From Bacteroidales bacterium (GTDB taxonomy: Bacteria; Bacteroidota; Bacteroidia; Bacteroidales; VadinHA17): 33,329 nt of DNA. Every line of letters begins with the position of its first letter. Within the stretch, counting starts at the first letter, position 1. Below, one piece after another: positions 4,405-22,575 of this stretch. The position numbers and the translations under genes were made by a program. The stretch lies in NCBI GenBank assembly GCA_025454775.1, contig JALONU010000007.1:1-33329 (forward strand), read 5' to 3'. The notes under the pieces are model-generated. The model saw only the letters and a list, made by a program, of their open reading frames with translations. It was not told the DNA's origin and searched no databases.

Positions 4405-4408
4405 GATT

Positions 4409-5458
4409 TTAACCAGGTAATTTTGTGTTATTGGTTTTTTGCCTGAGTGAAGATTCCCGGACAATGAGTCTGTGTTTGAGAATGATTGAGCTGAGCCCTG
4501 CCTGCGATGAATTGCGGAGCTTGTTTATGAGCGACGATGCTGCTATCTCCCCTGTTTCCCCTGCCGGGTAATCAACAGTTGTAAGGTTTGGTTTTATGAC
4601 ATTACTTATCGGTTCGTTATTGAATCCTGCAACAGCTATGTCTGCCGGAATCCTGATCCCTCCCTTCTCCATCTCCATAATTGCTGCAACTGCGGTAGTG
4701 TCGTTGGAGGTGAACAGGCCGTCGGGCTTTTGTTTCATCCTGAGAATTCTCCTGCCGGTTTCCTTCCCGTCCAGGCTGCTCATGTTCCCGGTTATCAGGA
4801 GATCGGGATCAAACTCAATTTCATTGTCGCTCAGAGCCTGCCTGTACCCCCTGTATCTTTAGGAATAGACGTTTCTAAGCATATTGCCTCCAAGGTGCAT
4901 TATCCTTCTGCAGCCCTGTTCAATAAGATGCAAAGTTGCTTCATATCCCGCTTTGAAATTGTCGATGACGACACTTATGCATTTCGGACAATCCGCAACC
5001 CTGTCGAAAAAGACCACAGGTATGTCCCTGTCCGACAGTATGTTGAAATGCCTTATATCTTTCGTGTTCAGGGCCAGAGATACAAGCAGGCCGTCTACCC
5101 TGCTGTTGAACAAGGTTGTGACACAGGCGGCTTCTTTCTGATGAGATTCCTGCGACTGGCTTATGATAAGGCCATAGCCGTTCTCTGATGTTATCTTTTC
5201 TATGCCGGCCAGGGCGCTTGCCATGAAATAACTGTCGAGACGCGGAACAATGACTCCAATGGTATAGGTATGTTTTTGCCTGAGGTTGCTGGCGAACTTG
5301 TTCTGCCTGTAACCCATTTCAGCTGCGACGGCATGGATCTTCTTCCTGGTCTCCTTCCTGATGTGAGGATGATTGCTGAGAGCCCTGCTTACTGTGGATG
5401 CAGAGAGATGTACTGCCTTTGCAATATCATATATCGTTATATCCCTGCCAGATTTCAT
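4409..5458 (-). pseudogene. LacI-family transcriptional regulator interrupted by an in-frame TAA
   Basis: A LacI-type sugar-responsive repressor. The first 199 codons give the HTH (TIYDIAKAVHLSASTVSRAL, residues about 8-27) and half of the periplasmic-binding-like sensor domain, ending ...GGNMLRNVYS. A TAA at 4859-4861 stops translation. The same frame then continues with RYRGYRQALSDNEIEF...ITGN and reaches a normal LacI C-terminus (PDGLFTSNDTTAVAAIM, TTVDYP). Bridging the stop gives about 349 codons, the usual LacI length, so a single nonsense substitution explains it, not a frameshift. An internal ATG at 4783 opens a 124-aa remainder with no DNA-binding domain. It precedes GH67 by 4 nt. Sequencing error or true pseudogene cannot be told apart here. 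Confidence 0.85.
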
Positions 5459-5524: not shown

Positions 5525-5538
5525 TGCAATCGGTTGCA
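5525..5538. promoter_or_regulatory. LacI-type operator (site O1) in the lacI/Gfo divergent spacer
   Basis: TGCAATCGGTTGCA is a near-perfect palindrome with the central CG typical of LacI-family operators. Its exact reverse complement occurs at 23279-23292, and one-mismatch and two-mismatch forms at 23162-23175 and 14389-14402. It lies between the divergent lacI (start 5458) and Gfo/Idh (start 5646) genes, as expected for a local LacI regulator. Confidence 0.75.
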
Positions 5539-5645: not shown

Positions 5646-7052
5646 ATGCAAAATTCAAAGAAACAAATTTCACGAAGGAAATTCCTCGACACATCTGCCA
5701 AAGCGACACTCTTTTCAGGAGTGGCCATGGCAGGATTTCCTACCATCATCCCTGCAAGCGTTATTGGGAAAAATCCTCCCAGCGACAAGATCAACATCGG
5801 GTGGATAGGCTGCGGCCGCCAGGGAAGAGGAGATGTTATGGGAACTCTCAGGTTTGATACGTGCATGTTCGTGGCAGTTTCCGACGTCGATTCAAACAGG
5901 ATGGCCCTTGGAAAGAAAATGATCGACGATTTCTACGGAAGGCAAACCGGCAACAGCAGCTATTCGAATGTAAAAATGTACGCCGACTACAAGGAAATGC
6001 TCCTCGACAAGTCGATAGATGCCGTCATGATCACCACACCTGACCACTGGCATTCACAGCCTGCCATCGAAGCAGCTCTCGCAGGTAAGGACATATATCT
6101 CGAGAAACCGACATCGCTTACAATAACCGAGGGACGCCAGCTGGTTGAAGTGGTGAAGAAGAAAAAGATCATTCTGCAGGTCGGAACACAGCAAAGATCC
6201 AGCGCCCAGTTCAGGGTAGCTGCAGAACTGGTGAGAAATGGCAGAATAGGTAAGCTCCATACGGTGAAGATCGGCCTTCCCGGAGATCCGTCCGGACCGG
6301 AAGCACCGGAGATGCCTGTACCCAAAACCCTTAACTACGACATGTGGCTGGGTTCAACACCACAAGTTTATTATACCGAAATAAGGGTTCATCCGCAGCA
6401 GGGATTCGACCGTCCCGGATGGCTCAGGTGCGAACAGTTCGGCGCAGGAATGATAACAGGATGGGGCCAGCATCATTACGATTCGGCAATGTGGGGCATG
6501 GACACCGAGCACACCACACCGATATCCTATGAGGCAGTTGCAGAATTCCCGAAATCAGGCCTCTGGGATGTACACGGCGATTTCATGGCCAAGGCAGAAT
6601 ATGCCAACGGAGTAACAATGTACACAAGCGGCGGATTCCCCAACGGTGTGCGCTATGAGGGTTCCGACGGATGGATCTTTGTTACACGCGGCAACTACAG
6701 AGCCACCGACAGCGACCCGATACCACAGGGACAGAGCAATCCTCCCCTTTCGGCCAGCGATCCCAAACTTATGTCACCGATAGGTGAAAACGAGCTTCAT
6801 CTTTATGTTAGCACTAACCAGCAGGGCAACTGGCTCGACTGCATCAAATCGCGCAAGGAACCGATTTCTCCTGTCGAAATCGGACATTATGCATGCTCAG
6901 TCTGTCTTCTCACTCATGTAGCAATGAAACTCGGCCGGAAAGTGAACTGGGATCCCAAAGCCGAGAAATTCATAAACGACAAGGAAGCAAATTCCATGCT
7001 GTCGAGGCCGCAGAGAGCGCCTTACGGGACGAACTATATCAAAGGAATATGA
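5646..7052 (+). CDS. Tat-type Gfo/Idh/MocA family oxidoreductase
   Basis: A 468-aa NAD(P)-dependent sugar oxidoreductase of the Gfo/Idh/MocA family, predicted to be exported folded. The N-terminus has a twin-arginine signal (ISRRKFLDTS) followed by a hydrophobic stretch to about residue 40. The nucleotide-binding loop is GWIGCGRQGRG (about 52-62), then DHWHSQP and the family EKPTS motif. The C-terminal half fits the bacterial-type Gfo/Idh/MocA substrate domain. Its stop overlaps the start of the DUF6807 gene (ATGA), so the two are translationally coupled. It diverges from lacI and shares operator O1. The substrate is not shown; a glucuronate- or xylose-containing sugar is an inference from context. 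Confidence 0.88.
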   Translation: MQNSKKQISRRKFLDTSAKATLFSGVAMAGFPTIIPASVIGKNPPSDKINIGWIGCGRQGRGDVMGTLRFDTCMFVAVSDVDSNRMALGKKMIDDFYGRQTGNSSYSNVKMYADYKEMLLDKSIDAVMITTPDHWHSQPAIEAALAGKDIYLEKPTSLTITEGRQLVEVVKKKKIILQVGTQQRSSAQFRVAAELVRNGRIGKLHTVKIGLPGDPSGPEAPEMPVPKTLNYDMWLGSTPQVYYTEIRVHPQQGFDRPGWLRCEQFGAGMITGWGQHHYDSAMWGMDTEHTTPISYEAVAEFPKSGLWDVHGDFMAKAEYANGVTMYTSGGFPNGVRYEGSDGWIFVTRGNYRATDSDPIPQGQSNPPLSASDPKLMSPIGENELHLYVSTNQQGNWLDCIKSRKEPISPVEIGHYACSVCLLTHVAMKLGRKVNWDPKAEKFINDKEANSMLSRPQRAPYGTNYIKGI

Positions 7053-7954
7053 GAAAACTGCTTTCAGGCATTTTGCTACTCCTGTCAGGGGCTGTAATAA
7101 CTCTGCCCCTGCAGGGAGCAAAAATCACCGCTGTTAAAGTCGGCTCCAAGATCAATGTTACCATCAATGGTAAATACTTCACCTCGTATATCTTTTCAGA
7201 GGATGAGAAGTATCCCTTCTTTTATCCGGTGAACGGCCCTCTTTCGGGTGGCTCTGTTACCTCAATGAGAAATGCAGAGTATCCCCACCACAGCTCACTT
7301 TTCTTCGGCTGCGACCTGGTGAACGGAGGCAACTACTGGCAGGAAGGACTGGAAAGAGGAAGGATCATTTCTGTCAATGCCGAGATAATCAAGCAGGGCG
7401 GCGATACAGTGATCATCACCGATGAGTGCATCTGGAGCAGACCGGGAGCAATATCACCTGTAAAGGATACCAGAAAGTACACTATTACAGCTCCTTCGGG
7501 TTCCATGACACAGATCGATGTTGAGATAACCATGGAGATGCTCATCGATGTGGTTATCAAAAAGACAAACCATTCGCTCTTCAGTGCCAGAATGGCGGCT
7601 GATCTGTCAGTTAAGAACGGGGGCACGATGATAAATGCCGAAGGACTGCTCGGAGAACCAGGAACCTTCGGCAAGGGATCACCCTGGATAGATTTCTACG
7701 GAAAGAGGGGAACGATGACGGAAGGACTTGCAATATTGCAGCATCCATCAAATCCATGGTATCCTTCGCCATGGTTTACACGCGACTACGGTTTCATGTC
7801 ACCCACACCCATGTACTGGCCGCAGAACGGTACCGACACCCAGATGAAGAAGGGTACCACACTCCTTCTGCGCTACCGGGTGCTCGTCCACGGCGGGTCA
7901 CACAGGGAAGCTGATATTGCGGGTAACTTTGAAAAATACAGGATTACAAAATAA
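7049..7954 (+). CDS. Secreted DUF6807 (PmoA-like) family protein
   Basis: A 301-aa protein with a signal peptide (MRKLLSGILLLLSGAVITLPLQG) and the motif YPHHSSLFFGCDLVNGGNYWQEG, typical of the family filed as DUF6807 or 'methane oxygenase PmoA'. The body is beta-rich and looks like a carbohydrate-active or binding fold; no catalytic residues can be assigned. The start at 7049 is chosen over the longer frame from 6893 because it overlaps the preceding stop as ATGA, has AAAGGA 3 nt upstream, and exposes a signal peptide. It is encoded with the Tat-type Gfo/Idh protein, a pairing I know from other Bacteroidota loci, so both may act on the same sugar in the periplasm. The methane-oxygenase name should not be taken as function. 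Confidence 0.78.
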   Translation: MRKLLSGILLLLSGAVITLPLQGAKITAVKVGSKINVTINGKYFTSYIFSEDEKYPFFYPVNGPLSGGSVTSMRNAEYPHHSSLFFGCDLVNGGNYWQEGLERGRIISVNAEIIKQGGDTVIITDECIWSRPGAISPVKDTRKYTITAPSGSMTQIDVEITMEMLIDVVIKKTNHSLFSARMAADLSVKNGGTMINAEGLLGEPGTFGKGSPWIDFYGKRGTMTEGLAILQHPSNPWYPSPWFTRDYGFMSPTPMYWPQNGTDTQMKKGTTLLLRYRVLVHGGSHREADIAGNFEKYRITK

Positions 7955-7984
7955 CCTCACCCTCATACCGACCCTGATAAGACG

Positions 7985-8016
7985 ATATAGTCCGGTTTGC
8001 CGGACTATATTATTTT
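7985..8016. terminator. Bidirectional terminator between DUF6807 and GH3
   Basis: A perfect 11-bp stem (ATATAGTCCGG, 7985-7995, with CCGGACTATAT, 8000-8010) and a TTTG loop, followed on the plus strand by TATTTT. It separates two convergent genes. The GH3 stop codon (8005-8007) lies inside the stem. Confidence 0.75.
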
Positions 8017-10233
8017 CACCAGTTTCTTGAGTATACCAGCCTCTTCATCAGCTGTCACCTTCGAAGGCTGCCTTCCTCCGACTGTTATCATGTACTGACC
8101 GGGGTCAGCTGCTCTTTTGTTGTTTTTGGCAATAACTGTAAAAGCATCAGCTGCAACTTCAAAGGTCACTGTCCTGGCCTCCCCCGGTTCCAGATGAATG
8201 CGCCTGAAACCTCTCAATGATCGTATCGGCACCGGCACGTCAGCGTCGAGGTTTGAAACATACAGCTGTGCGACTTCGTCACCTGCCATAGTTCCCGTAT
8301 TCTGTATCCTCACAGAGGCTCTGAGTGCCTGGCCCGGTTTCACTTTCTTCGGAGCCTTCAGTTTGCTGTACCCGAAAGTGGTATAGCTCAGACCATGCCC
8401 GAACTTATAAAGGGGTTCTCCCCTGAAATAGCGGTATGTCCGGTTATCCATCTTGTAATCGGAAAAATCGGGAAGGTCATTTACCGATTTGTAGAAGGTC
8501 ACAGGCAGACGGCCGGCAGGGTTGTAATCCCCGAAAATGACATCGGCCAGAGCCTGTCCTGCTGCCTGTCCTCCGTACCATGTCTCGATTATAGCAGGGA
8601 TGTTTTCATTCTCCCAGTTTATTGCCAGGGCACTTCCGTTCAGCAGCACAAGCACAACAGGCTTGCCCAGTGAATGAATTGACCTGATCAGCTCCTGCTG
8701 AACATCCGGAAGGTCAATCCTCGTCCTGTCGCCGCCCCGGAATCCGTCGATGGTCACCCTCATTTCCTCTCCTTCAAGCCTTGGAGTTATGCCCATGCAC
8801 ATTATAACCACGTCTGCCTTCCCTGCAGCTTCCATGGCTTCAGCTTTCAATTCGGCTTCGGGCTTCTGGCTGGTCATTCCAGTGGCCCAGTTGCAGCCCT
8901 GTGCATACAGCACTTCCGCATTGCTGCCAAGCTTTTCCCTGATACCTCTCAGCGGCGTAACCGGGTCGGATGGATTTCCGTTATAGTTGCCCAGGAGCAC
9001 AAACGACTGGTCTGCATTGGGTCCTATCACAGCTACCTTACTGATGTTCTTTTTCAGGGGGAGCAGGTTAAGGTCATTCTTAAGCAGAACTATCGACTTA
9101 CGTGCGGTTTCAGCTGCAAGGGTTTTATTTTGTTCTGAATCATTGACGCTGTACGGTATGCTGGCCCATTTAACCATTTCGGGAGGATCGAACATTCCGA
9201 GCCTGAACCTTGCAACGAACAGCCTCTTCAGGGCTATGTCGAGCTCTCTTTCCGTGATCATCTTCTTTTCAAGAGCTTCCTTCAGGTTCCTGTATGCCGA
9301 ACCGCATTCAAGATCGGTGCCCGTTTTTACCGCCAGTGCCGATGCTTCGGCAGCCGTCCCAACAAGTTTATGACCCCGGTAGATGTCGTTGATTGCGCCG
9401 CAGTCAGACACAATGTACCCGTCAAATCCGAATTCTGTCCTGAGAATGCCGTTCAGAAGATCTTCGCTTCCACAGGTCGCTTCGCCGTTATACCTGTTAT
9501 AAGCGCACATTACGGAATAGGCTTTCCCTTCCTTTATTCCCATCTCAAACTGTGGCAGGTAGGTCTCACGGAAATCACGTTCATCGGTAACGGCATCAAA
9601 TGAATGCCTTTCGGGTTCCGGACCGCTGTGCACCACATAATGCTTTAAAGTAGCAACGGTTTTAAAATATTTGGGATCGTCTCCCTGGAGACCTTTCACG
9701 AACTGGACACCTATCTTCCCGGTCAGAAAAGGATCCTCGCCATAAGTTTCCTGGCCTCTCCCCCACCTCGGATCCCTGAAAATGTTGATGTTGGGAGTCC
9801 AGAAGGTAAGACCCTGGTATCTTCTTCTCTGGCCATTCCTGATAAACTCATGATGTTTTGCACGGGCTTCGTCGGAAATGGCTGTGGCTACCCTGAAAAT
9901 AAGGTCTTCATCCCATGTGGCACCGAGGCCTATAGCCTGTGGAAAGACTGTCGCCAGACCTGCCCTTGCAACACCATGAAGGCATTCGTTCCACCAGTCG
10001 TAAGCAGGTACACCCAGCCTGTCAATTGCAGGAGCAGTGTTCATCATCTGGCTGATCTTCTCATCCACCGTCATCCTGCTGATAAGGTCGCTTGCACGGT
10101 CTTCGGCTGAAAGCGCCGGGTCCTGGTAAGGAAACTCATATTTCTGCTGTGCCTTTATTGAAGCCACAGTCACAAGCATCAGGACCAGCACGACTAATCC
10201 TCTCAATATCTTGTTCCAATTTTCAGAATTCAT
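8005..10233 (-). CDS. GH3 beta-xylosidase/beta-glucosidase
   Basis: Exo-acting glycosidase that should release xylose (or glucose) from oligosaccharides in the periplasm. From the ATG at 10233 it is 742 aa with a signal peptide (hydrophobic residues 10-28, cleavage near IKAQQ). The frame is open to 10446, but that extension reads through the 94-bp repeat and is not coding. The N-terminal TIM barrel has YDWWNECLHGVAR, characteristic of the xylosidase branch, and the nucleophile D277 in IVSDCGAI. The alpha/beta sandwich domain follows (LLLKN-like LLKNDLNLLPL), with the likely acid/base in LEGEEM. A fibronectin-III-like domain ends the protein. Xylan genes on both sides support beta-xylosidase activity. 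Confidence 0.93.
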   Translation of the reverse strand: MNSENWNKILRGLVVLVLMLVTVASIKAQQKYEFPYQDPALSAEDRASDLISRMTVDEKISQMMNTAPAIDRLGVPAYDWWNECLHGVARAGLATVFPQAIGLGATWDEDLIFRVATAISDEARAKHHEFIRNGQRRRYQGLTFWTPNINIFRDPRWGRGQETYGEDPFLTGKIGVQFVKGLQGDDPKYFKTVATLKHYVVHSGPEPERHSFDAVTDERDFRETYLPQFEMGIKEGKAYSVMCAYNRYNGEATCGSEDLLNGILRTEFGFDGYIVSDCGAINDIYRGHKLVGTAAEASALAVKTGTDLECGSAYRNLKEALEKKMITERELDIALKRLFVARFRLGMFDPPEMVKWASIPYSVNDSEQNKTLAAETARKSIVLLKNDLNLLPLKKNISKVAVIGPNADQSFVLLGNYNGNPSDPVTPLRGIREKLGSNAEVLYAQGCNWATGMTSQKPEAELKAEAMEAAGKADVVIMCMGITPRLEGEEMRVTIDGFRGGDRTRIDLPDVQQELIRSIHSLGKPVVLVLLNGSALAINWENENIPAIIETWYGGQAAGQALADVIFGDYNPAGRLPVTFYKSVNDLPDFSDYKMDNRTYRYFRGEPLYKFGHGLSYTTFGYSKLKAPKKVKPGQALRASVRIQNTGTMAGDEVAQLYVSNLDADVPVPIRSLRGFRRIHLEPGEARTVTFEVAADAFTVIAKNNKRAADPGQYMITVGGRQPSKVTADEEAGILKKLVKII

Positions 10234-10330
10234 GATAGTATGTTTTTCTTGATTGTTACTCCTTGTTCTCTCTTTCATCCTTTCTTTGGTCTTCTGTGAT
10301 GGTATTTTATCTTTGGCTTTGTCTAAAATA

Positions 10331-10424
10331 AACCCACCCCAACCTCCCGCTATGCTGAAGTTTCGCGGGACAGGCTTCCGCTGTCGCGGAATCTCCACTT
10401 CGTTCCGATCTCCCAGCGGGGGAT
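10331..10424 (-). repeat. 94-bp G-rich intergenic repeat, copy B, with ACTCAC-rich flank
   Basis: Copy B of the repeat at 2121-2214 (five differences, same orientation), placed in the GH3 upstream region. It is followed at about 10434-10480 by an ACTCAC/ACTCACA degenerate tract that runs into the last codons of the methionine-synthase activation-domain gene. The rest of the 241-bp spacer (10234-10330) shows no clear promoter box. Confidence 0.85.
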
Positions 10425-10474
10425 CCGTACTCTCCAGCTCACCCACTCACAACTCACAACTCACCACTCAATAC

Positions 10475-11179
10475 TCACCCCTTCCTCCTGTAGATGCAGT
10501 CCTTCATGTCGCAAAGGCTGCACGTATAGGGCATTCTCCTCACATCCGGGCCTAAACCGATTATGCCGCTGATGGATTTTACGGGATCCATGAGTGCGGA
10601 ATCTGTAAGCTTTATCCCGCAGAAATTTCCGGGTAACAGGCTGAACAGCCTGTGCTGCTGCGAAACATCCCAGCCGCAGTATCCCGGGCTGAAGCGGTTT
10701 GTTATTTTCCTTCCTTCCATCGACATTTCCACTTCCAGTTCATTCTGCATCAGGTCTGCAGCTGCCTCGACGGCTTCGCTTCCGATCACATCATAGATAT
10801 ACCCCTCGAGAAGGTCACTTTCCTTCATGGCACGGCGGCTGTTTTCTCCAATGCCCTTGCCGGCAGTGCACGTGAAAAGGGCCAGTGAATCGGCTTTCCT
10901 GATCTGACCAAAAATAATTTTACCGATATCGAATGTTACTTCACCGATTGTAACCTTTTTGTTGGTCGGGTCAAATGTTATATTCTCAAATATCCTGTAC
11001 TCAGCTTTCAGATCGCATATGGCTTCAGCTTCCTTCATCACCCTTGCTGCTATATCATATATTGGCTCATGAGACTCGCCTTCGGGGTAACCCATAGCCC
11101 TTTCAATCTGCTCCACTGTGAGATTCAGATCCCTGAAGTCAAAAAGAAAAGTCTTATGTATCATAATGTCAATACTCAT
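10475..11179 (-). CDS. Stand-alone cobalamin-dependent methionine synthase activation domain
   Basis: A 234-aa protein equivalent to the C-terminal reactivation domain of MetH, which uses AdoMet and an electron donor to rescue oxidised cob(II)alamin. The family signature is visible as NRFSPGYCGWD around residues 161-171 (MetH has an RPAPGYP-type motif), and VIGSEAVEAAAD precedes it. The C-terminus carries C220-x2-C223-x4-C228, a possible metal site. It is the last gene of the corrinoid operon, after a 135-bp spacer full of G-rich hairpins. Such free-standing domains are known from split methionine synthases and, in function, parallel the activators of corrinoid O-demethylases. The start could be 11179 or 11164. 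Confidence 0.87.
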   Translation of the reverse strand: MSIDIMIHKTFLFDFRDLNLTVEQIERAMGYPEGESHEPIYDIAARVMKEAEAICDLKAEYRIFENITFDPTNKKVTIGEVTFDIGKIIFGQIRKADSLALFTCTAGKGIGENSRRAMKESDLLEGYIYDVIGSEAVEAAADLMQNELEVEMSMEGRKITNRFSPGYCGWDVSQQHRLFSLLPGNFCGIKLTDSALMDPVKSISGIIGLGPDVRRMPYTCSLCDMKDCIYRRKG

Positions 11180-11190
11180 TCTTTCTTCAC

Positions 11191-11283
11191 GCCCCCCTGC
11201 CCCCCTATAGGGGGGTTGAAATCCATCTGTTCACAGGGTCTACAGCCCCCCTTTAGGGGGGTTGGGGGGTCAGCAGCGAAGCG
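11191..11283. repeat. G-rich palindromic repeats (two C6-N4-G6 hairpins)
   Basis: CCCCCCTATAGGGGGG at 11200-11215 is a perfect palindrome, and CCCCCCTTTAGGGGGG at 11246-11261 is followed by GTTGGGGGGTC. Both occur in the spacer between the MTHFR fusion and the reactivation-domain gene. The tail matches the G-rich repeats at 2121, 10331 and 27541. In this position they could act as attenuators inside the operon. Confidence 0.75.
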
Positions 11284-11314
11284 GAGTGTAATCCGTGTCT
11301 TTTAAAGGCACCGA

Positions 11315-12775
11315 TTACAAATCGGCGCCAGCAACATTCCCGATAATCCCCGCTTCCGTAACAATCCTTCCCACAACCTCTTCCCAACCCATCGTCATAA
11401 TATGTATGCCGTTGATCCCTGTTTTCCTTTTCACCGCATCGATCACCTCAAGAGCTATCTGTACACCTTCTTCTGCTGCACCATCTCCAGCTTTTTCCAT
11501 CCGGTTCAATACTGATGCCGGAAGAAATACACCGGGAACTTTTTCATGAAGGTAGCGCGCTACCTTAAAGCTTTTAAGCGGGGCTATTCCTGCCAGGATG
11601 TACACCTTACCCAGGACGTCCCTCCTGTCGAGCTGCTCGAGCCAGGCATCGAGACGCTCAGGTTCAAAGATCAGGTTGGTCTGGAAGAACTGTGCACCGG
11701 CGTTCATCTTCTTCTGATCCCTGATCGCCTGCATTTCAGGATCTGATGCGAACGGCGATGTTGCTGCTCCGAGAAACAGCTTCGGAGGATTTTTAATTTT
11801 CCTGCCATCAAGATATATCCCTTCATCCCTCATGCGTCTCAGAACCCACAGCATCTGGACAGAGTCGAGATCGACAAAATTCATCGTTGCAATGGGTGAG
11901 GGACCAACAACCGGATTGTCACCCGTAATACATAGGATATTTCTGATTCCCATGCTGTTAGCGCCGATCGCTGCAGACTGAAGACCTGTCCTTGTTGTAT
12001 CCCTCGCTGCTATCTGAAGGACCGGTTCAGCATTGAGATCTGTTGCCACCTTGCAGCACGAAACACTTGACATCTTGGGATTTGCCGATGATGAATCCGT
12101 GAAATTTATTGCGGCCACATAAGGCTTGACAAGTTCTATATCCCTGACCAGCTTCAGTGAACCGGCGCTCAGCGGAGGAGTAACTTCAGTGGCTATAACA
12201 AATTCTCCGCTGCGGAGTCGTTTTTCGAGGTTTGAAGCAGGTTCATGTTCCGGCGCGGCATGGTAATCCGAATCTCCGCTCCACCAGCCAGGCTGGCGGA
12301 CAGTCCGGAAGACACTGTCCCACACTGAATTATGTTTCTCCTTATCCTTTGAAAGCACACCACGGATAAATTTACCGGTCCCGACTTTTCGTACCTGTCG
12401 TACAACATCTCCCCAGGTTTCCGTACCCACCCTGTTCCAGTCGAGAGGAGGCAGCACTTCAAGTAACTTCTCCTGTCTTCCTGTTTTGAAAGACCTTTTA
12501 TATATGGCGTACCATACACATTTCCTGGTTTCATCAACATAGCAGTTCTTTTCGGGAGTCACTCCTCCGCAGGGACCGTTTCTGAGTCCTTTCGGACACT
12601 CCATGGGGCAGATGAAAGCTGTTTCCTGGAGAAGGCAGTTTCCGCACATCCTGCATCCGAAAAGAGGGCCTTTTATTGCAAGCTCCAGCTTTGCCAGCAG
12701 TCGCCCTGATAAGGGCTCTCTCCTGAACGGGTAAAAAGCAGGCTGCCACCTGCGTGCAGGTTTAATCGACGACAT
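11315..12775 (-). CDS. Fused MTHFR_C (MetV-type) + methylenetetrahydrofolate reductase (MetF)
   Basis: Reduces 5,10-methylene-THF to 5-methyl-THF, or runs in reverse, in the cytoplasm. The 486-aa protein has an N-terminal cysteine-rich MTHFR_C/MetV-type domain with eight cysteines (C41, C44, C47, C56, C60, C69, C78, C86; motifs GCRMCGNC and GLRNGPCGG) that could carry iron-sulfur clusters. A linker leads to a MetF TIM-barrel from about residue 181. EVTPP (about 197) matches the active-site Glu region of MetF, and ITGDNP is typical of the flavin site. In acetogens MetV and MetF are separate subunits; here they are one chain in reversed complex order. It follows the methyltransferase gene by 8 nt. 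Electron donor and direction cannot be read from sequence. Confidence 0.88.
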   Translation of the reverse strand: MSSIKPARRWQPAFYPFRREPLSGRLLAKLELAIKGPLFGCRMCGNCLLQETAFICPMECPKGLRNGPCGGVTPEKNCYVDETRKCVWYAIYKRSFKTGRQEKLLEVLPPLDWNRVGTETWGDVVRQVRKVGTGKFIRGVLSKDKEKHNSVWDSVFRTVRQPGWWSGDSDYHAAPEHEPASNLEKRLRSGEFVIATEVTPPLSAGSLKLVRDIELVKPYVAAINFTDSSSANPKMSSVSCCKVATDLNAEPVLQIAARDTTRTGLQSAAIGANSMGIRNILCITGDNPVVGPSPIATMNFVDLDSVQMLWVLRRMRDEGIYLDGRKIKNPPKLFLGAATSPFASDPEMQAIRDQKKMNAGAQFFQTNLIFEPERLDAWLEQLDRRDVLGKVYILAGIAPLKSFKVARYLHEKVPGVFLPASVLNRMEKAGDGAAEEGVQIALEVIDAVKRKTGINGIHIMTMGWEEVVGRIVTEAGIIGNVAGADL

Positions 12776-12783
12776 GTTCCGTT

Positions 12784-13626
12784 TTATTGCTGTCTGCTCT
12801 GAAAATATTCAACGAATCTCACCGCAAAATCATCCCTGCCGAGCACGAGGTCGGTAGCCCTCACGGCTGCAGTTACTTTTTCGGGATTTGCTATGGGACA
12901 TGTAAGCCCGTTATAGATCGAAAGACTCATGAAAGCTGCATTAAGAGACTCCCTGTCCGGAAGACCGAATGAAATATTGCTGGCTCCCTGGGTAATGTTG
13001 TGTCCCAGCTTCGTGTGGACCAGCCTTATGGTCTCGAGAGTTACGAGACAGGCATTTGGGTCTGCACTTACCGCCATTGCCAGGGGATCGATTATCACGT
13101 CTTCAGCCTTAATTCCTGCCCTTACTGCCCTTTCGATGATCTTCTCTGCTATCGAAAGCCTTTTTTCGGGATCGTGCGTGATGCCATCATCATCCATGCA
13201 AAGGCCTATGATCGCAGCCCCGTATTCCCTGGCAAGGGGAAGGAGTGCAGAAAGGGACTTTTCTTCCCCGTTCACGGAGTTGATAAGACATTTCCCGGAT
13301 GCAACTTTCAGGGCAGCTTCTATCGCCCTGGGATTAGGAGAGTCGAGGCAAAGCGGCACATCGTAATGTTCCTGCAGGACTTTCACCGTTTCCGGCAGAA
13401 GCTTCTCGTCTTCAACCCCCGGAAATCCCACATTGACGTCAAGTACATCGGCACCGGCCTTTATCTGGGTGTCTGCAAGCTCCAGGACTAATCCGAAATT
13501 CCCTTCCTGGAGTGTGCTTACAAGCTTCTTACGCCTGGTCGGGTTTATACTTTCACCTATGATGATCACAGGACCTGATGTGTCTATGATAACCTCGCCG
13601 GTTGTACCGCGTAGAATTGTCTTCAT
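12784..13626 (-). CDS. Methyltetrahydrofolate:corrinoid methyltransferase (pterin-binding, AcsE/MtvA-like)
   Basis: Transfers a methyl group between methyl-THF and a corrinoid protein. The 280-aa TIM barrel of the pterin-binding family shows IIGESINPTRRKK (about 22-34), DVLDVNVG (about 60-67), CLDSPNPRAIEAAL, INSVNGE and NITQGASNISFGLP, all characteristic of MeTr-type enzymes (dihydropteroate-synthase superfamily). The length is normal for a stand-alone MeTr. It lies between the corrinoid protein gene and the MTHFR fusion (8 nt), so it links the corrinoid to the folate pool. No homocysteine-binding domain is attached or encoded nearby. Whether it works toward THF (demethylation) or from it (methionine synthesis) is open. 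Confidence 0.9.
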   Translation of the reverse strand: MKTILRGTTGEVIIDTSGPVIIIGESINPTRRKKLVSTLQEGNFGLVLELADTQIKAGADVLDVNVGFPGVEDEKLLPETVKVLQEHYDVPLCLDSPNPRAIEAALKVASGKCLINSVNGEEKSLSALLPLAREYGAAIIGLCMDDDGITHDPEKRLSIAEKIIERAVRAGIKAEDVIIDPLAMAVSADPNACLVTLETIRLVHTKLGHNITQGASNISFGLPDRESLNAAFMSLSIYNGLTCPIANPEKVTAAVRATDLVLGRDDFAVRFVEYFQSRQQ

Positions 13627-13642
13627 ACTTTTATTGCTTTAT

Positions 13643-13687
13643 GACCCCCCACCTGCCCGCCCCCCGAGGTGGGAGGAAGAAGAAGGG
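13643..13687. repeat. G-rich hairpin repeat in the corrinoid operon
   Basis: CCCACCT (13648-13654) pairs with AGGTGGG (13667-13673) around a C-rich loop. The element occupies most of the 67-bp spacer between the corrinoid-protein stop and the methyltransferase start, and resembles the other G-rich hairpins of the window. Confidence 0.5.
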
Positions 13688-13693
13688 GAAGGA

Positions 13694-14359
13694 TCAGGAC
13701 AGTTGATTCAGGTAATTCACAGCTCCCTGTGGATCGGGCGAATAGAAGTCGGCATTGATCTTCTGGCAATATTCCATAGTTACCGGTGCACCGCCGACCA
13801 GAACATTAAGTCCGGAGTAATTCCCCCGTATCACCTCAACTGTTTTTTTCATGTTTTCCATAGTGGTCGTCAGGAGTGCCGAGAGTCCGATCACAGCTCC
13901 GGGATTATCATTAATGGCTTTAAGGAACTTTTCTGTGTTCACGTCAACGCCCAGGTCTATTATCTCCCAGCCTGCGCCTTCGATCATCATTGCCACAAGG
14001 TTCTTCCCAATGTCGTGGAGGTCTCCTGCTACAGTACCGATAATGAACTTACCCTTTCTCAGTGTCTCTCCCGACTGAAAGAAGGGCTTAAGATGCTTCA
14101 TGGCGCCACTCATGGCCTTGGCGGCCATAAGCATCTGCGGCACATAAATAACTTTCCTGCTGAATTTGTCGCCTACCAGGGCCATGGCTGGGATCAGTGC
14201 CATTTCGAGAATGTCTCCTGGCTTTATTCCTTCCTCAAGCGCTCTCTTTGTTATCTCATCGGCTCCGTCCTGGCCTTTCAGGTCGGGTGGATAGGGAGAA
14301 GCCTTATCTATCTTACCGAACTCCACACAATGCGAAAGCTGCTGAAGTATCTCGCTCAT
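13694..14359 (-). CDS. Corrinoid (B12-binding) methyl carrier protein, MtbC/MetH-core type
   Basis: A 221-aa methyl-carrying corrinoid protein. A helical cap domain (about 30-100, with the usual LIPAM...VGDKFSRKVIYVPQMLMAAKAM) precedes the Rossmann-like B12-binding domain, with the lower-ligand motif D113-L-H115-D-I-G118. A later Ser-Ala-Leu-Leu-Thr-Thr segment and GGAPV follow, as in MtbC/MtmC/MetH. It is the first gene of the operon and accepts or donates the methyl group handled by the adjacent methyltransferase. A weak LacI-type operator (14389-14402) is about 30 bp upstream. The proteins named after trimethylamine or methanol corrinoids are close in sequence, so the methyl substrate cannot be inferred from this gene alone. 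Confidence 0.92.
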   Translation of the reverse strand: MSEILQQLSHCVEFGKIDKASPYPPDLKGQDGADEITKRALEEGIKPGDILEMALIPAMALVGDKFSRKVIYVPQMLMAAKAMSGAMKHLKPFFQSGETLRKGKFIIGTVAGDLHDIGKNLVAMMIEGAGWEIIDLGVDVNTEKFLKAINDNPGAVIGLSALLTTTMENMKKTVEVIRGNYSGLNVLVGGAPVTMEYCQKINADFYSPDPQGAVNYLNQLS

Positions 14360-14388: not shown

Positions 14389-14402
14389 TTCAACCGATTG
14401 TA
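14389..14402. promoter_or_regulatory. Weak LacI-type operator upstream of the corrinoid operon (site O4)
   Basis: TTCAACCGATTGTA matches TGCAACCGATTGCA at 12 of 14 positions, including the whole CAACCGATTG core. It lies 30 bp before the corrinoid-protein ATG (14359). It could be a true site or chance; the two mismatches are in the outer arms. Confidence 0.4.
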
Positions 14403-14440: not shown

Positions 14441-14480
14441 ATTAAAAAACAGGGACCTGCCCACGACAGGCAGGTCCCTG
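14441..14480 (-). terminator. Rho-independent terminator of the GH10 gene
   Basis: A perfect 12-bp stem (CAGGGACCTGCC at 14450-14461 with GGCAGGTCCCTG at 14469-14480), with a 7-nt loop. On the minus strand the stem is followed by TTTTTTAAT. It lies 55 bp past the GH10 stop and separates GH10 from the corrinoid operon, which must therefore have its own promoter. Confidence 0.85.
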
Positions 14481-14534
14481 CAAAACTAACCCGGATCACC
14501 ACTTTGGGATATGCGCAACTAACCAACCTATCCC

Positions 14535-15644
14535 TCAGAAGTCTGTAATTTCGAAATATGCTTTTTTGGGTCTGAGCCCGGTATCAAAAAGGAGGGGGTA
14601 GTTCTTCCGTCCTGCAACCGGGAAATTATCGAGCCATGTCTTGTCATCGGCAAGTCCCCAGAAAGTGACACTGGTAATAACGTCACTGTATGACCGGAAA
14701 GCAGTAAAGAACCTGTCATAGGCAGCTGTGAGCTGCTGTTCCACTTCTGCAGTGTATTCGCTTTCAGGATCTGAAGGTGAAGGATAGACCGAAACATCCA
14801 TTTCCGTTATCTGGATCTGCAGCCCAAGTGATTTGAACTTATCCAGGGCCTGTTTTATCAGGTCATCGGAAGGGAAACTGATGCTCCAGTGCCCCTGGAG
14901 GCCTAACCCGTCGATAAGGTTTTCAGCCTTGAGTTTCACAGCAAGGTCGTAGATTTTATCTCTCTTCGCCGGAACTATCGTCGAGTAGTCATTATAAAAA
15001 AGCAGGGCATCGGGATCTGCTTCCCTGGCAGCTCTGAAAGCCTCAATTATGTAATCCTCTCCACACATGGAATACCATTGTGAAGGCCTGTAGGTGCGAG
15101 ATCCGTCGTCAATTGCTTCATTCACAACATCCCAGGCATATACCTTACCCTTATAGCGGGTCATCACCGTTGTAATATGGGTATGCAGCCGTTCAAGGAT
15201 CTGCTCCTTTGTTGCCAGGGCAGTTCCGTCTTTGAACACCCAGTCGGGGACCTGGTTATGCCAGCAGAGGCAGTGGCCCCGGATTTTAATTCCGTTAGCC
15301 GCTGCAAAAGAAACAATCTTATCTGCATTGGTGTAGTTGAAGCTCCCCTCCTGAGGCTGAAGGCTCGACCATTTCATGTCATTCTCGGCGGTTATGCTGT
15401 TGTAATGACGTTTTATGAGCGCCGTTTTGGCTGTATTATCGACAAATGATGCCGGGATCGCCACTCCCATATCGAAATAATCAATATTGTTGAAGTGATC
15501 TTTCAGTCCCTGATTTCCAGTATCGTATTCGTGAAGGTCCTGTTCCCATTCTTTTTCTTCCTCAGTAAGTTCTTCCTTTTTGCATGAGGTTGATCCGAAC
15601 GAAAGATACAGGAGCAGAACAATCAGGGCAATCTTCAGATTCAT
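14535..15644 (-). CDS. GH10 endo-1,4-beta-xylanase lipoprotein
   Basis: Hydrolyses internal beta-1,4 bonds of (glucurono)xylan, probably at the outer membrane surface. The 369-aa precursor has a lipoprotein signal (FGSTSC, lipidated C21) followed by an acidic stretch (KKEELTEEEKEWEQD) of the kind linked to surface export in Bacteroidetes. The single GH10 domain runs from about residue 47 to the end, with ENDMKW (87-92), HCLCWHNQ (123-130), acid/base E176 in WDVVNEA, and nucleophile E281 in ITEMDVS. No binding module is attached. It lies downstream of susD across a 136-bp spacer with an inverted repeat, and ends at a strong terminator. Confidence 0.96.
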   Translation of the reverse strand: MNLKIALIVLLLYLSFGSTSCKKEELTEEEKEWEQDLHEYDTGNQGLKDHFNNIDYFDMGVAIPASFVDNTAKTALIKRHYNSITAENDMKWSSLQPQEGSFNYTNADKIVSFAAANGIKIRGHCLCWHNQVPDWVFKDGTALATKEQILERLHTHITTVMTRYKGKVYAWDVVNEAIDDGSRTYRPSQWYSMCGEDYIIEAFRAAREADPDALLFYNDYSTIVPAKRDKIYDLAVKLKAENLIDGLGLQGHWSISFPSDDLIKQALDKFKSLGLQIQITEMDVSVYPSPSDPESEYTAEVEQQLTAAYDRFFTAFRSYSDVITSVTFWGLADDKTWLDNFPVAGRKNYPLLFDTGLRPKKAYFEITDF

Positions 15645-15682
15645 TGCAGTTAAAGTCTTTAATTAAGTATTCTGAAAGAGAT

Positions 15683-15768: not shown

Positions 15769-15780
15769 CTCATATATCAG

Positions 15781-17730
15781 TTAGTATCCCGGATTCTGGT
15801 ATGCAGCTTTTTCCTCCGGGGTCGCCTCCATGCCATCGAGTTGTGACTGCGGGATCGGGCGCAGATACAGGTATGGTTGTATGCTGCGTGTAACAGTTAC
15901 CGCGTTATGGTCTCCTTTCACACTGGATGCTATCCTGTAGGTAGCAGCTATTTCGCCCCATTTCTGCGTGCGTACCAGGTCCCACCAGCGCCATCCTTCG
16001 CCATAGTATTCACGCGAACGTTCTGCCAGGATATAATCAAGGGTTATTGTAGCCGGTGTTGCAGTTTCCATATCAGTGCTGTGGTCCACAACTTTAGCTA
16101 CATTACCTGCCCTGTCCCATTTCCATACTCCGGCACGTTTACGTATGACATTTATAAGGTCCCTTGCTGTTTTACCTGCCTGGGTCGTTGCTCCCTGAAC
16201 AGCTGCCTCAGCAGCTATGAAATAGAATTCGGAGAATTTGGCAATGTTGAAAGGCCTGGTGACTGCGGCATTGGGCTGTCCCAATCCCCCGGCATTGTCG
16301 GTCCGGTAAGTACTCATTTTCCAGGTACCCGGGTAAGTCACACGGCTGATGCCTGCAGGAGAAACCACATAGTCAGCTCTCCCCGGAAGAACGCCTCCGC
16401 CGACATTGCTCGGACCTGCTCCTGTCGGATAGGTGATCGGCGTTGCGGGTTCATCGGGAAGAAAAGTCAGTATTGCGTCACCGGGATAAACCTGCAATCC
16501 GTTGGCACCATAGTAGAATGCTGTGGCATCTCCGCCTTTGGGCCAGTTGCCTCTGTAAACAGTTGTAAAAGTGCCGTCAAACCTTGAGTCATTTGTCTTA
16601 TCTGCAAAAGTATTTACAAATGCCTCAATAGTCGGCGCCATACGTGTCCAGGGACGTCCGAGGTCCTGGGATGCTTCACGCAGAACTACAGGTGTCAGGC
16701 TTGAACCGTCAGGATTTTTGCCGCTGCGTATCTCAGTATAGTTCCATGTCATCATCCAGCAGGCAAAATTGTCAGCACCGCCTCCTCCTCCATATGTCAG
16801 ACTCGAGCCGTTGTATTTCTCGCTTGTCTGGGTATGATCCGCATAAAGCAGCATTTCCTTGTTGCGGTCATTTCCCCCTTTGTTCAGTTCATAGAACGTC
16901 GGCATAAGGCCGTAAGGTCCTGGGTTATCGATGGCCGTTGTTGCTACATTGTAGGCTTCCTGGAAATACCATGCGGCATTATGGCCATCAGGATCGGTCC
17001 TGTCGCTTACCGGGTAAGTTGGTATGTTGTTGGGATTCAGAAGCCACCATGCATATGTCAGGTATGCCTTTGACAGGAACAAGCGTGCCACATTCTTGGT
17101 CACAGTACCTGTTAACCTTCCTGTTTCAGGAAGATCGGCTATAGCCGTCAGCAGGTCAGGGAATACGGCTTTGGTATATACTTCAGGTACCGTGTTCCGC
17201 ACTGAGTTCCTTGCAGGATTGATGTTGAACTTAAGTTCCCCTGCACCCATATCCAGAGGCACGCCTCCATAGGTCTGCACCAGCATAAAATAATCGAATG
17301 CACGGAAGAAGCGGGCTTCGGCTATCAATGAGGCTGCGAGCCCTACGTCGGTGGCATTTTCGATGATCCCGCTTGCGGTGTTGATTGCAGGAAATGCGTT
17401 ATCCCACAGAGTATTAGTACCGCCAGGGACTGTTGGAGTGATATTCCCCTGTCCGCTGACATCCATAACCTTGAAGTTCGCATCAGCACTCTGGGCGTAG
17501 GTCGCCTCATCAGTACCCGTGACACCCGTGTTGTACCAGTATGCATTCCCCCAGATATAGCGAAGATGTGCATACAGCGAAGTCAGTCCTCCATTGACAC
17601 CCTGTTCGGTCTTGAAGAATCCGGGTTCAAATAAGCTTCGCGGTTGTTCTTCCAGAATATTAGAACAGGCTGACAGAAACAACATCAGTAGAGTTGCTCT
17701 TATTATCTTTTTTATATGTACTTGTTTCAT
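15781..17730 (-). CDS. SusD/RagB-family glycan-binding lipoprotein
   Basis: Outer-membrane surface lipoprotein that binds oligosaccharide and caps the SusC channel. The 649-aa precursor has a lipoprotein signal (LMLFLSAC, C22) and then SNILEEQPRSLF, a typical SusD N-terminus. TPR-like helical segments are visible (AEARFFRAFDYFMLVQTYGGVPL; KNVARLFLSKAYLTYAWWLL) and the C-terminal LAERSREYYGEGWRWWDLVRT and YLRPIPQSQLDG motifs are diagnostic. It is 10 nt downstream of susC. Ligand specificity cannot be read, but the GH10/GH67/GH3 genes around it point to xylan oligosaccharides. Confidence 0.96.
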   Translation of the reverse strand: MKQVHIKKIIRATLLMLFLSACSNILEEQPRSLFEPGFFKTEQGVNGGLTSLYAHLRYIWGNAYWYNTGVTGTDEATYAQSADANFKVMDVSGQGNITPTVPGGTNTLWDNAFPAINTASGIIENATDVGLAASLIAEARFFRAFDYFMLVQTYGGVPLDMGAGELKFNINPARNSVRNTVPEVYTKAVFPDLLTAIADLPETGRLTGTVTKNVARLFLSKAYLTYAWWLLNPNNIPTYPVSDRTDPDGHNAAWYFQEAYNVATTAIDNPGPYGLMPTFYELNKGGNDRNKEMLLYADHTQTSEKYNGSSLTYGGGGGADNFACWMMTWNYTEIRSGKNPDGSSLTPVVLREASQDLGRPWTRMAPTIEAFVNTFADKTNDSRFDGTFTTVYRGNWPKGGDATAFYYGANGLQVYPGDAILTFLPDEPATPITYPTGAGPSNVGGGVLPGRADYVVSPAGISRVTYPGTWKMSTYRTDNAGGLGQPNAAVTRPFNIAKFSEFYFIAAEAAVQGATTQAGKTARDLINVIRKRAGVWKWDRAGNVAKVVDHSTDMETATPATITLDYILAERSREYYGEGWRWWDLVRTQKWGEIAATYRIASSVKGDHNAVTVTRSIQPYLYLRPIPQSQLDGMEATPEEKAAYQNPGY

Positions 17731-17741
17731 TTTGCAGCTAA

Positions 17742-20700
17742 TTAAAAGGTCAGATTTACTCCAAACACGAAGTTCCGGGTTGACGGTGCATTAAAGGCAA
17801 CCGTTAAGATACGGCTGTTGAGCCCTCCTGTTGCAACGTTCTGGTTTCCGTAAGAGTTGGTTTCCGGATCCATTCCCATTTCCTTGTTGAATTCTGAGAA
17901 CAGAACAAAAGGATTCTGAACAGTGAAGTATACACGCATTTTAAGATCAGGAGTCCTGATCAGATTCTTATTCAGGTCATACCCGAGTGAAATGCTGCGC
18001 ACCTTCATATATGTGCCGTCAAAGTATTGCATGGTGCTCAGATACTTCGGGTTATCACCTACGAGGACACCGCTCGGAGCAGGATACTTGGCATCAGTGT
18101 TTTCACTTGTATAGTAGTCAACCTTGATATTACCCCTTCGGCCTGTCATCAGGTTGAGGTAACTGCTGGGCCCGTTCAGCGTACTGACAAGAATGCCGTT
18201 CAGCTGGAAACCGCCTATAACACTCAGATCAAGTCCTTTCCAGGCTACCCGGGTATTGAATCCTCCCCAGAAATCCGGATCGACATCCATGATTTGCCTG
18301 TCGTCTGAATTTATCTGCCGGGTTGGCGTCCCGTCAGGATTAAATTCTCCTGTATATTTCACCTTAATCATGCCGACATTTCCTCCGGGTTCCAGGATAC
18401 TCAGATACTGATCTTCTGCCTGCCATAATCCAATCCTCTCGTAGTCGTAGATTGCGTTTATGTTATGGCCCACGAACCAACCGTTTCCTTCATCACGGGT
18501 CTGCCCTGAAGCAAGTGATACCAGTTCATTCCTGTTTGCTGTAAGGTTGAGCCCGGCTTCCCACGTCAGTCCGCCTTCACTTTCAATAATAACTCCGTTG
18601 AGTGCAAATTCGATCCCTGTATTCCTGGTAGCTCCGATATTTGCCGTATAACTGCTAACACCTGATGTCCGCGGCAGGCTGAGACCAAGCAGGAGATCCT
18701 TAGTATTCGAGATGTAATACTCAATTGTTCCCGACAACCTGCTCTTGAGCAAGGTGAAATCAAGACCCAGGTTCCAGGTTTCGGAATACTCCCATCCCAG
18801 TGCCGGATTCGGCAGCTGTGTGACATAGTATCCGGTTGCATATGTAGCATCTCCAAAGTTGTAGTCCCTGGAGCTCAGGCGGCCGAGGGTGCTGTAAGTT
18901 TCAACAGCCTGGTTGGATGTTTGCCCGTAACCGGCACGGATCTTCAGCTTGTCGATGAAAGAGATGTTTTTCATGAATGACTCATTGCCGATATTCCAAC
19001 CCACTGATACAGCGGGATATGTATGCCATTTATGTCCTTCTGCAAGTCTTGAGGATGCATCTGCACGGATTGTTGCCGTGAGCATATACCTGTTGTCGTA
19101 TTCGTACATCACGCGTCCCATATATGAAAGCAGGCCGTTCTGAGCATAACCTCCGGGATTTGTTGTGATCTCGCCCAGCGACTGCCCAAGGCTGTAGAAC
19201 TGGAAAGCATTGGACGGGATCCCTTTAGCAGCGGTCCCCGAATTGAAGGAAGTGAACTGGTCGGCTTCGTAGAGCGCAACTGCGTTCACCCGGTGCTTTC
19301 CGGCAAACAGATGATCGTAGCTCAGCAGGTTCTGGACGTTCCAGTGGTAATTATGATAATTGCTGATGGATGCAGTCGAAATGGTCGTAGGATTATCACT
19401 TCCGACGCCCGTTGCGGTGAAGCTGCCGTTGTTGTCCTGCATGAAATCGAGTCCGAGGGTGAAACGGTACTTCAGGCCCTGTATCCATGGGATTTTAACT
19501 TCACCGTATATCGAATTATACGTTGAATATCCCCTGCTCTGGCTCAGCCATTCATCCTCCAGTCCTTCCACAATGGACCTTGTATAGTTAAACTGGTTGT
19601 CCAGCGTCATCCTGATCACTCTTTTCAATGTACCGTCCGTATTGTAAGGATCGGATATGGGTGACAGGCTTAACACTCCGTACAGGCCTACCTGGTTGCC
19701 TTCTGTCTGGTTATAGTTGCTGTTGGTATTGAAGCCGAACATAAAATACTTGCCCACCTCCTGGTCGATTGCGCCGCGGAGGGAATAACGGGTGAACTTG
19801 TTGGTCGGGATAACGCCCTGGTCGCGAAGATATCCTAAGCCGAAATTATAGCTTCCGTTTGTTGTCCCTCCGCTGAGGCTTATATCATGGCTCGCCTGGA
19901 ATCCGTCCCTGAAAAACAGGTCCTGCCAGTCGGTATTCACATCGTCTAATTCATCAGGACCGTTTGTATACCTGGCAGAAGCCGTACGCAGGGCAACGAA
20001 TTCGGATCCTTCCATCATTGGGTATTTGGAGAAGATCTTGTTTATGCTCTGGCGTCCGCTGTAGGTGATTTTTGCCTTTTGCCCCTTTTCACCCCTGTTG
20101 GTGGTGATCATGATAACACCGTTTGCGCCCCGTGACCCATAGATAGCTGTTGCCGAAGCATCCTTAAGGATATCGATGCTCTTGATATCGTCGTTGTTGA
20201 TCTCGTTGATGGATCCGACAAACGGAATTCCGTCGAGCACCACCAGGGGATCATTTGTTGCCGTGAGTGAGCGTGAACCCCTGATCCTTATCTGCAGGGC
20301 TGACCCGGGACGTGTTGATGTCTGGGTAAGTTCAACGCCCGGGAGCCTTCCCTGCACCGACTGGGTGAAGCTGTGCGACGGTATGGCGCGAAGTGCTTCT
20401 CCGCCTATTGAAGCCACAGATCCGGTAACAGCTTCCCTGCGCTGAGTACCGTAACCCACAACAACAACCTCTTCCAGTTGTGTCAGCTCCTGCAGAAGGG
20501 AAACATTCAGCTCTGCCTTGTTCCCGACTGCGATCTCCTGTGTCTGGTATCCGATAAAGGACACCAGGAGTACGGCCTGGGGAGGTACATTCTCCAGTAC
20601 ATAATTACCGTTCATGTCGGTTGTTGTTCCACGGGTGGTTCCCCTGATCACGACCGTTGCCCCTGTTATCGGAACACCTTTATCATCAGTAACAACACCC

Positions 20701-22452: not shown

Positions 22453-22575
22453 AATATAATTGTGGTTAATTCATATAATACAATCCTCACATAGGAAATA
22501 CTCACTGAGTCATAAGAAAAAATGCTAAATTCCGAAAAATGATCCGGTTTATAAACCTGATGGAGCAGGGAAAAC

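Follow-up and report, generated by a model that had tools for sequence, protein, structure and literature searches.

For what would a xylan-degrading bacterium use corrinoid- and tetrahydrofolate (THF)-dependent methyl-transfer genes? This question is raised by a 33,329-nucleotide stretch of a Bacteroidales genome (assembly GCA_025454775.1, contig JALONU010000007.1), referred to here as the window, in which a four-gene module is embedded in a glucuronoxylan locus. The module comprises a stand-alone corrinoid carrier (COR), a methyl-THF:corrinoid methyltransferase (MeTr), a MetV-MetF fusion, and a MetH-type activation domain protein (ACT). The open reading frame (ORF) list and family profile searches confirmed all four ORFs, which lie on the minus strand from 14359 down to 10475. 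A first-pass annotation, made from the letters alone, had described this co-directional set as flanked by GH3 on one side and GH10 on the other, with GH67 and mannonate dehydratase nearby, and the family profiles bore out every part of that description (Table 1). It had also reported the lack of a substrate-side methyltransferase and of a homocysteine-binding domain, and the window proteins searched included neither. The module most likely serves demethylation and is probably the shared portion of a corrinoid-dependent demethylating system linked to xylan.

COR, whose DLHDIG stretch we take to be the cobalamin motif, has MtgC_2 and MtbC as its closest NCBIfam models, both below cut-off, and matched 1y80 and 7xcn in the PDB, while MeTr matched 4o0q and 2e7f. 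The MetV-MetF fusion begins 8 bp past MeTr. An AlphaFold2 model of ACT, built from a 26-sequence alignment, reached a mean pLDDT (predicted local distance difference test score) of 89; its top PDB match was 1j6r, the stand-alone TM0269 of Thermotoga (E 4e-12), followed by MetH reactivation domains, and ACT is thus predicted to be a stand-alone fold of the MetH activation domain. It retains the RxSPGY stretch, and C168, C187, C220, C223, and C228 are invariant across the 26 sequences, three of them forming a CxxCx4C tail that was modeled with low confidence. The window cluster contains this MetH-type protein instead of a RACo-type activator, which was not found there. In the gap between MetV-MetF and ACT (11180-11314), C-rich and G-rich inverted stretches resemble, by eye, a small repeat insertion.

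The linkage of the module to xylan genes was followed across relatives. Among 247 genomes sampled from the order, 6 encode the MetV-MetF fusion at E <= 1e-60, and a scan of species genomes yielded 239 related stretches, the 80 best of them being retained. Thirty-seven loci of the four-gene type were scored, some of them ended by contig edges, and 26 retain at least 4 kb downstream of the module. XylA, XylB, GH10, GH67, or GH115 is carried by 18 of these 26 (20 of 37 over all loci), with XylA/XylB in 16, GH67/GH115 in 6, and Gfo-Idh or DUF6807 in 14, compared with none of the five xylan markers in 54 control loci (821 kb), a non-random set of URO-D and GcvP neighborhoods, 37 from xylan-clade and 17 from other genomes, from which L139 and L160 were dropped and in which L129 and L148 overlap. 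ORFs of the relatives were called mechanically and named by the best BLAST hit to annotated representatives, with at least 40% identity required in the counts and overlapping ORFs excluded. The association with xylan and xylose genes, first noticed at this single locus, is therefore conserved. Phylogenetic analysis of 81 fusion proteins, with L139 left out as occupying the same place as L035, placed all 20 xylan-linked rows in one clade of 31 (support 97/99), so that a single origin followed by long retention is the simplest reading.

Some loci differ in composition. The sister loci L034, L035, L039, and L046 contain AraC, COR-MeTr-MetVF, and the formate-THF ligase Fhs; ACT was seen in L035 only, and L035 and L046 additionally hold an MtaA/CmuA-like URO-D gene. 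L010, from another clade, reads RACo-COR-AraC-FocA-Fhs-MeTr-MetVF, in which RACo was identified and FocA is a formate/nitrite channel, while genes of about 500 amino acids occupy the RACo position in L014, L058, L072, L077, and L080. This make-up, with Fhs, a formate channel, and RACo or URO-D, fits demethylation with oxidation of the methyl group to formate. Among the 25 fusion genomes followed up (the genome of the window and G247-G265, which make up 20 of the xylan clade and correspond to 20 retrieved loci, plus G112, G007, G125, G131, and G140), G007 and G125 show another activator, or none that was seen, instead of ACT. Two paralogous modules coexist in fen_982 (genome G255), one of the xylan type (L029) and one of the AraC/Fhs/URO-D type (L035). 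Among L050-L094, many of them from Chloroflexota, fusion relatives of 62-66% identity stand beside a distant MeTr in Anaerolineae.

A shared operator appears to tie the module to the regulation of the surrounding genes. The palindrome family TGCAAYCGRTTGCA, a LacI-type operator, has 4 sites in the window at no more than 2 mismatches, versus 0.44 expected, and 0 of 100 shuffles reached 4. The first-pass annotation had proposed a weak shared operator at 14389-14402; its own 14 bases give only a weak excess (7 sites versus 2.8 expected at no more than 3 mismatches, with 4 of 100 shuffles as high), and what held up is the palindrome family, which is conserved in relatives together with xylan genes. 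At no more than 1 mismatch, 23 sites occur in 14 of the 31 xylan-clade loci (485 kb). No site appeared in the 37 controls from xylan-clade genomes (575 kb), in the 17 controls from other genomes (246 kb), or in 44 further fusion loci (719 kb; L050-L094 minus L069, a xylan-clade locus carrying one site). The pattern was chosen after inspection of the data, and the related genomes are not independent. The site lies ahead of COR with 0-1 mismatch in seven relatives (L018, L019, L025, L027, L031, L036, and L037), and in further xylan-clade loci it precedes LacI, GH115, or SusC. The same operators also occur in xylan loci remote from the module, including those of genomes outside the clade (L182, L184, L188, L192, and L197); L182 shows the gene order XylA-XylB-ManD-SDR-GH67-LacI / GH10-Gfo-DUF6807. 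Since the operator is common to the module, LacI/GH67, Gfo-Idh/DUF6807, and the sigma-SusCD-GH10 unit, a probable co-regulation of the module with xylan use is well supported at the level of sequence, with LacI as the presumed binding protein. A terminator-like hairpin separates GH10 from the module, which therefore probably has its own transcript starting past the 14389-14402 operator. The lacI gene of the window is interrupted by a single in-frame stop, reflecting either true decay or an assembly error.

In the proposed scheme, a methyl group would be loaded onto COR by a substrate-specific methyltransferase whose gene lies elsewhere and which most likely belongs to the URO-D superfamily; MeTr would move this methyl group from COR to THF. 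MetV-MetF would then oxidize methyl-THF into the one-carbon (C1) pool, leading to formate or biosynthetic C1 units. Once the cobalt had become oxidized, ACT would re-methylate COR with S-adenosylmethionine (AdoMet), replacing the RACo-type activators of known demethylases. The catalytic direction and the URO-D partners are what we infer. In this lineage the module appears to belong to the LacI regulon of xylan use, so that a methyl ether encountered during xylan consumption is the likeliest donor. The side chains of hardwood glucuronoxylan bear a 4-O-methyl group, and this would be the foremost donor. Some O-methyl sugar is the probable source of the methyl group, and 4-O-methylglucuronate is plausible as the donor in this organism, with a chance somewhat short of even. 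More tentatively, scattered URO-D enzymes in carbohydrate loci may demethylate O-methylated sugars (4-O-methylglucuronate, methylated deoxysugars) and share one corrinoid/THF oxidation module, which would then be the core of an anaerobic system for sugar O-demethylation. Gfo/Idh dehydrogenases, which neighbor the module as well as URO-D genes, may first oxidize the sugar to a keto form, in which the alkyl ether would be an adequate leaving group for cobalt(I).

Which proteins could load the carrier? The genome of the window encodes three URO-D proteins, named after their contigs C4, C186, and C69. C4 (338 amino acids) is MtaA/CmuA-like, below the NCBIfam cut-off; it was first taken as HemE, but its LHICGDT stretch and NCBIfam scores instead indicate an orphan MtaA/CmuA-like protein. 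C186 (L125:6418-7668, in the region 1513-8983) lies between a putative RhaT-like transporter, which had no match in the PDB, and a GH29 α-L-fucosidase, behind GH106, a context from which a methyl-deoxysugar demethylation locus is possible. C69 (L126:2669-3922, in the region 2669-8001) lies directly ahead of a XylE-like porter and GH2; its relatives in L168 accompany a glycoside 3-dehydrogenase, two sugar porters, GH2, and a TIM-barrel isomerase, and in L145 genes of both the C186 and the C69 type stand with one fucosidase-like and one rhamnulokinase-like gene, the latter below cut-off. Among other families, MttB (PF06253) was not found as a substrate-side enzyme in the genome of the window, and none of 21 genomes yielded MtaB (PF12176).

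The C69 type tracks the module. It is present in 21 of the 25 fusion genomes, truncated in G247 and not found in G140, G248, or G265, with the typing in G247-G265 drawn only from URO-D hits of about 420 amino acids. Within the order sample, it occurs at 49% identity or more in 15 of 247 genomes, comprising 5 of 6 with the fusion versus 10 of 241 others (p 2e-6). In L160 it precedes COR by about 55 bp, in L035/L139 it neighbors the module's AraC gene, and in L150:62-6049 it belongs to a co-directional row of a URO-D gene with a weak thioredoxin match, CobW, ACT, the C69 type, and a glycoside 3-dehydrogenase, another layout of these components. Stand-alone carriers, separated from other B12 proteins by frame length, were found in 13 of 15 C69-type genomes versus 2 of 15 chosen without it, a post hoc choice among related genomes in which 35 were searched and G140, G006, G042, G029, and G064 were excluded; of the excluded genomes, G006, G042, and G064 also hold a carrier and a more distant URO-D. 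The zinc motif of MtaA is HxC...C; in 19 aligned C69-type sequences HxC is invariant, and the third cysteine is mostly tryptophan.

A 345-amino-acid URO-D type is the best candidate, judged by genomic context, for a xylan-side methyltransferase. In G043 (L188:14110-16260), the URO-D gene (15229-16260) comes about 40 bp after LacI, in a locus that also holds SusCD, GH115, a glucuronoyl esterase, and two perfect operators; the type occurs in at least 14 of the 25 fusion genomes, beside GcvP in 13 of those 14. Its position beside the glycine dehydrogenase GcvP, often with a DUF6807 or Gfo/Idh protein (L144:9671-13721 and 12 more loci), had initially been dismissed as housekeeping synteny, a view overturned by the G043 locus.

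The first-pass annotation had suggested that the module funnels the O-methyl group of the sugar to THF: the catabolic corrinoid/THF appearance, the conserved xylan/xylose neighborhood, and the shared operator favor such funneling, but a sink dedicated to 4-O-methylglucuronate is not borne out. A general tie between the module and α-glucuronidases was tested and proved weak, GH67/GH115 being present, fragments counted, in only 8 of 25 fusion genomes versus 7 of 45 comparison genomes (p 0.13); among genomes with the C69 type only, 6 of 10 carry them. Within the 20 xylan-clade genomes, an α-glucuronidase accompanies the module-locus operator in 6 of 9 genomes versus 0 of 11 without it (p 0.002), in a post hoc test on related genomes with short contigs, where absence of the operator may be a gap.

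Several other observations, besides this low frequency of α-glucuronidases, weigh against the demethylation reading. The window contains no substrate-side methyltransferase, and the 345-type URO-D was not found in the genome of the window. C69 scores 53.7 of 235 bits against the MtaA/CmuA models, far below cut-off, and matches MtaA in the PDB at only E 0.07; neither the C69 nor the C186 locus has an operator at no more than 1 mismatch, and the C69 type was not found in G265 or in G248, where a perfect operator stands ahead of the module COR. The operator itself is unevenly distributed: 17 of the 31 xylan-clade loci lack it at no more than 1 mismatch, and the 250 bp ahead of COR contain a site (no more than 2 mismatches) in only 8 of 27 loci, compared with 24 of the 323 starts of other ORFs there. 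In G140, the fusion is present and a stand-alone carrier was not found. Finally, the xylan linkage may have arisen once and then been inherited.

These points bear on the alternatives to different degrees. The closest of them, rather unlikely in our judgment, is a general demethylation hub, in which many URO-D enzymes would act on several kinds of methylated compounds from plants (methyl-rhamnose or methyl-fucose, methylated hexoses, lignin methoxyl groups), plant polymers would come together and hence bring xylan-type regulation, and 4-O-methylglucuronate would not be special. The multiplication of URO-D genes in some module genomes (20 in G250 and 15 in G252), the deoxysugar surroundings of C186 and of L145, the sugar-related neighbors of the C69 type in L168, the coexistence of both module types in fen_982, and the 17 of 25 fusion genomes in which GH67/GH115 were not seen all suit such a hub. 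It accounts less well for the α-glucuronidases that follow the operator (6 of 9 versus 0 of 11) and for the operator itself, which among the scanned loci occurs only in xylan-clade module loci, besides the five remote xylan loci. Alternatively, linkage could exist without function, the module being carried along in a part of the chromosome that is reshuffled slowly; one origin suffices on the tree, and many loci have flanking AcylT, LipK, and TolB-like genes in common, but the operator stands ahead of COR at 0-1 mismatch in seven loci and in none of the control loci, and the G112 module locus retains GH3, DUF6807, and Gfo-Idh without those flanks, which makes this explanation improbable.

Two further alternatives assign the module to known pathways. 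The carrier, pterin protein, and activation domain are all MetH-like, 1j6r is itself a stand-alone activation domain, and split methionine synthases with such parts exist, as the accessible text of one report indicates (PMC12478193). A split methionine synthase, or a MetH accessory, that landed in a xylan locus by chance was the alternative offered in the first-pass annotation, and it is now very improbable. In the genome of the window (3.28 Mb, 94.8% complete), PF02607 carriers number two, the window COR and a complete MetH, whose ORF extends through its own activation region on another contig and contains the sole homocysteine domain of the genome; the stand-alone domain that the first-pass annotation had named as counter-evidence was thus not found in this genome. 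A complete MetH elsewhere makes it unlikely that the module is the cell's methionine synthase, and the module, lacking a homocysteine domain, shares its operator with xylan genes. Across the 25 fusion genomes, the homocysteine domain lies in a frame of at least 1000 amino acids in 21 and in a truncated frame in 2, and was not found in the remaining 2; an extra stand-alone domain of 304-335 amino acids, the kind of protein that would favor a split enzyme, occurs in 7, and in 4 of these it shares a contig with metH. Both MeTr and MetV-MetF are characteristic of the Wood-Ljungdahl methyl branch, and fusion homologs exist in Chloroflexota. Operation of the module as this branch in the reductive direction is nonetheless the least credible explanation: CdhC/AcsB (PF03598), representing the carbon monoxide dehydrogenase/acetyl-CoA synthase complex, had no match in any of 33 genomes, although the positive control gave matches in two archaea, which makes methyl transfer to acetyl-CoA synthase unlikely.

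Corrinoid O-demethylases are known from acetogens and Desulfitobacterium. Read as a demethylation module, the window set can be compared with several described systems. The phenolic O-demethylases OdmB and VdmB belong to the UroD superfamily, according to the accessible part of PMC10418091; like systems of that type, the window has a corrinoid carrier and a THF-side methyltransferase, to which sister loci add RACo or URO-D, and unlike them it has a MetH-type AdoMet activator rather than RACo, no adjoining substrate-side gene, and a xylan-type operator. The same accessible text describes type 1 mlp clusters, proposed for methyl-sulfur and methyl-selenium compounds, in which URO-D methyltransferases accompany a corrinoid protein and an activator, as envisaged here; unlike the window, the clusters described there have no THF methyltransferase, and sugars go unmentioned in that text. 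MtgBCDE, which the available portion of PMC12478193 presents as a split glycine-betaine demethylase/methionine synthase of marine bacteria, likewise feeds THF through a separate carrier and pterin protein; the window differs in that its genome has no MttB-family protein, its locus has no homocysteine subunit, and COR falls below the MtgC cut-offs. ACT resembles TM0269 and the MetH activation domain in its predicted fold and RxSPGY stretch, and differs in the invariant CxxCx4C tail and two more invariant cysteines and in presumably acting on a free carrier. Removal of O-methyl groups from polysaccharide sugars has a precedent in an aerobic P450 that demethylates 6-O-methyl-galactose in marine polysaccharide degraders; as far as the accessible text goes, that enzyme is a monooxygenase releasing formaldehyde (PMC8360166), whereas the present set would work without oxygen. 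In literature that was mostly open-access and did not include bioRxiv, nothing was found on corrinoid or anaerobic sugar demethylation, or on an oxygen-free enzyme for the 4-O-methyl group; the text consulted in PMC4454575 was not relevant to the question. If the proposal is true, Bacteroidales from fens, lake sediments, and comparable habitats convert polysaccharide O-methyl groups into C1 units and formate, hemicellulose decay is tied to C1 metabolism, many uncharacterized URO-D-superfamily proteins gain a function, and a source of oxygen-free sugar demethylases becomes available.

The remainder of the window contains all components of a glucuronoxylan locus, namely SusCD, GH10, an α-glucuronidase, and GH3, and no Rfam family reached threshold anywhere in it. 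By position, the SDR dehydrogenase probably belongs to the uronate branch, a signal-peptide-like start suggests that the true start of GH3 is 10233, and the TolB-like gene probably starts at 23387. Structure prediction for the DUF6807 protein gave a poor model (pLDDT 64) with weak mutarotase-like matches and nothing firm.

Table 1. Features of the window, with coordinates, strand, and the basis of each assignment.
Feature	Position	Strand	Basis
D-mannonate dehydratase ManD, cut by contig start	1..1113	-	NF043051 above cut-off
SDR dehydrogenase	1267..2004	-	family search
GH67 α-glucuronidase	2248..4464	-	PF07488, PF07477, PF03648
LacI-family regulator, broken by in-frame stop	4409..5458	-	similarity to L069 LacI (PF00356)
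Perfect operator, LacI/GH67 vs Gfo-Idh/DUF6807 intergenic region	5525..5538	.	pattern scan
Gfo/Idh/MocA oxidoreductase, recurrent module neighbor	5646..7052	+	PF01408, PF19051
DUF6807 protein, recurrent module neighbor; true start probably near 7052	6893..7954	+	PF14100
GH3 xylosidase-like protein	8005..10446	-	family search
ACT, MetH-type activation domain protein, 234 amino acids	10475..11179	-	PF02965
MetV-MetF fusion, 486 amino acids	11315..12775	-	PF12225 (DUF5981) + PF02219 (MTHFR, methylene-THF reductase)
MeTr, methyl-THF:corrinoid methyltransferase, 280 amino acids	12784..13626	-	PF00809; NF005719 271.5 bits, cut-off 259
COR, stand-alone corrinoid carrier, 221 amino acids	13694..14359	-	PF02607 + PF02310
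Putative LacI-type operator, 2 mismatches, 30 bp ahead of COR start	14389..14402	.	pattern scan
Terminator-like hairpin, 15 pairs, GH10/module boundary	14449..14481	-	hairpin scan
GH10 xylanase	14535..15644	-	PF00331
SusD + SusC, two genes	15781..21095	-	family search
FecR anti-sigma + extracytoplasmic function (ECF) sigma factor, two genes	21310..23142	-	family search
Operator, 1 mismatch, 20 bp ahead of ECF sigma gene heading FecR-SusC-SusD-GH10	23162..23175	.	pattern scan
Perfect operator, sigma gene/TolB-like divergent intergenic region	23279..23292	.	pattern scan

Elsewhere in the same genome, contig C232, on which genome-wide profile searches gave no URO-D or corrinoid match, carries a second GH67 (L181:8867-10975) together with an alginate-lyase-family protein, a SASA esterase, an MFS_2 porter, and pieces of GH3.

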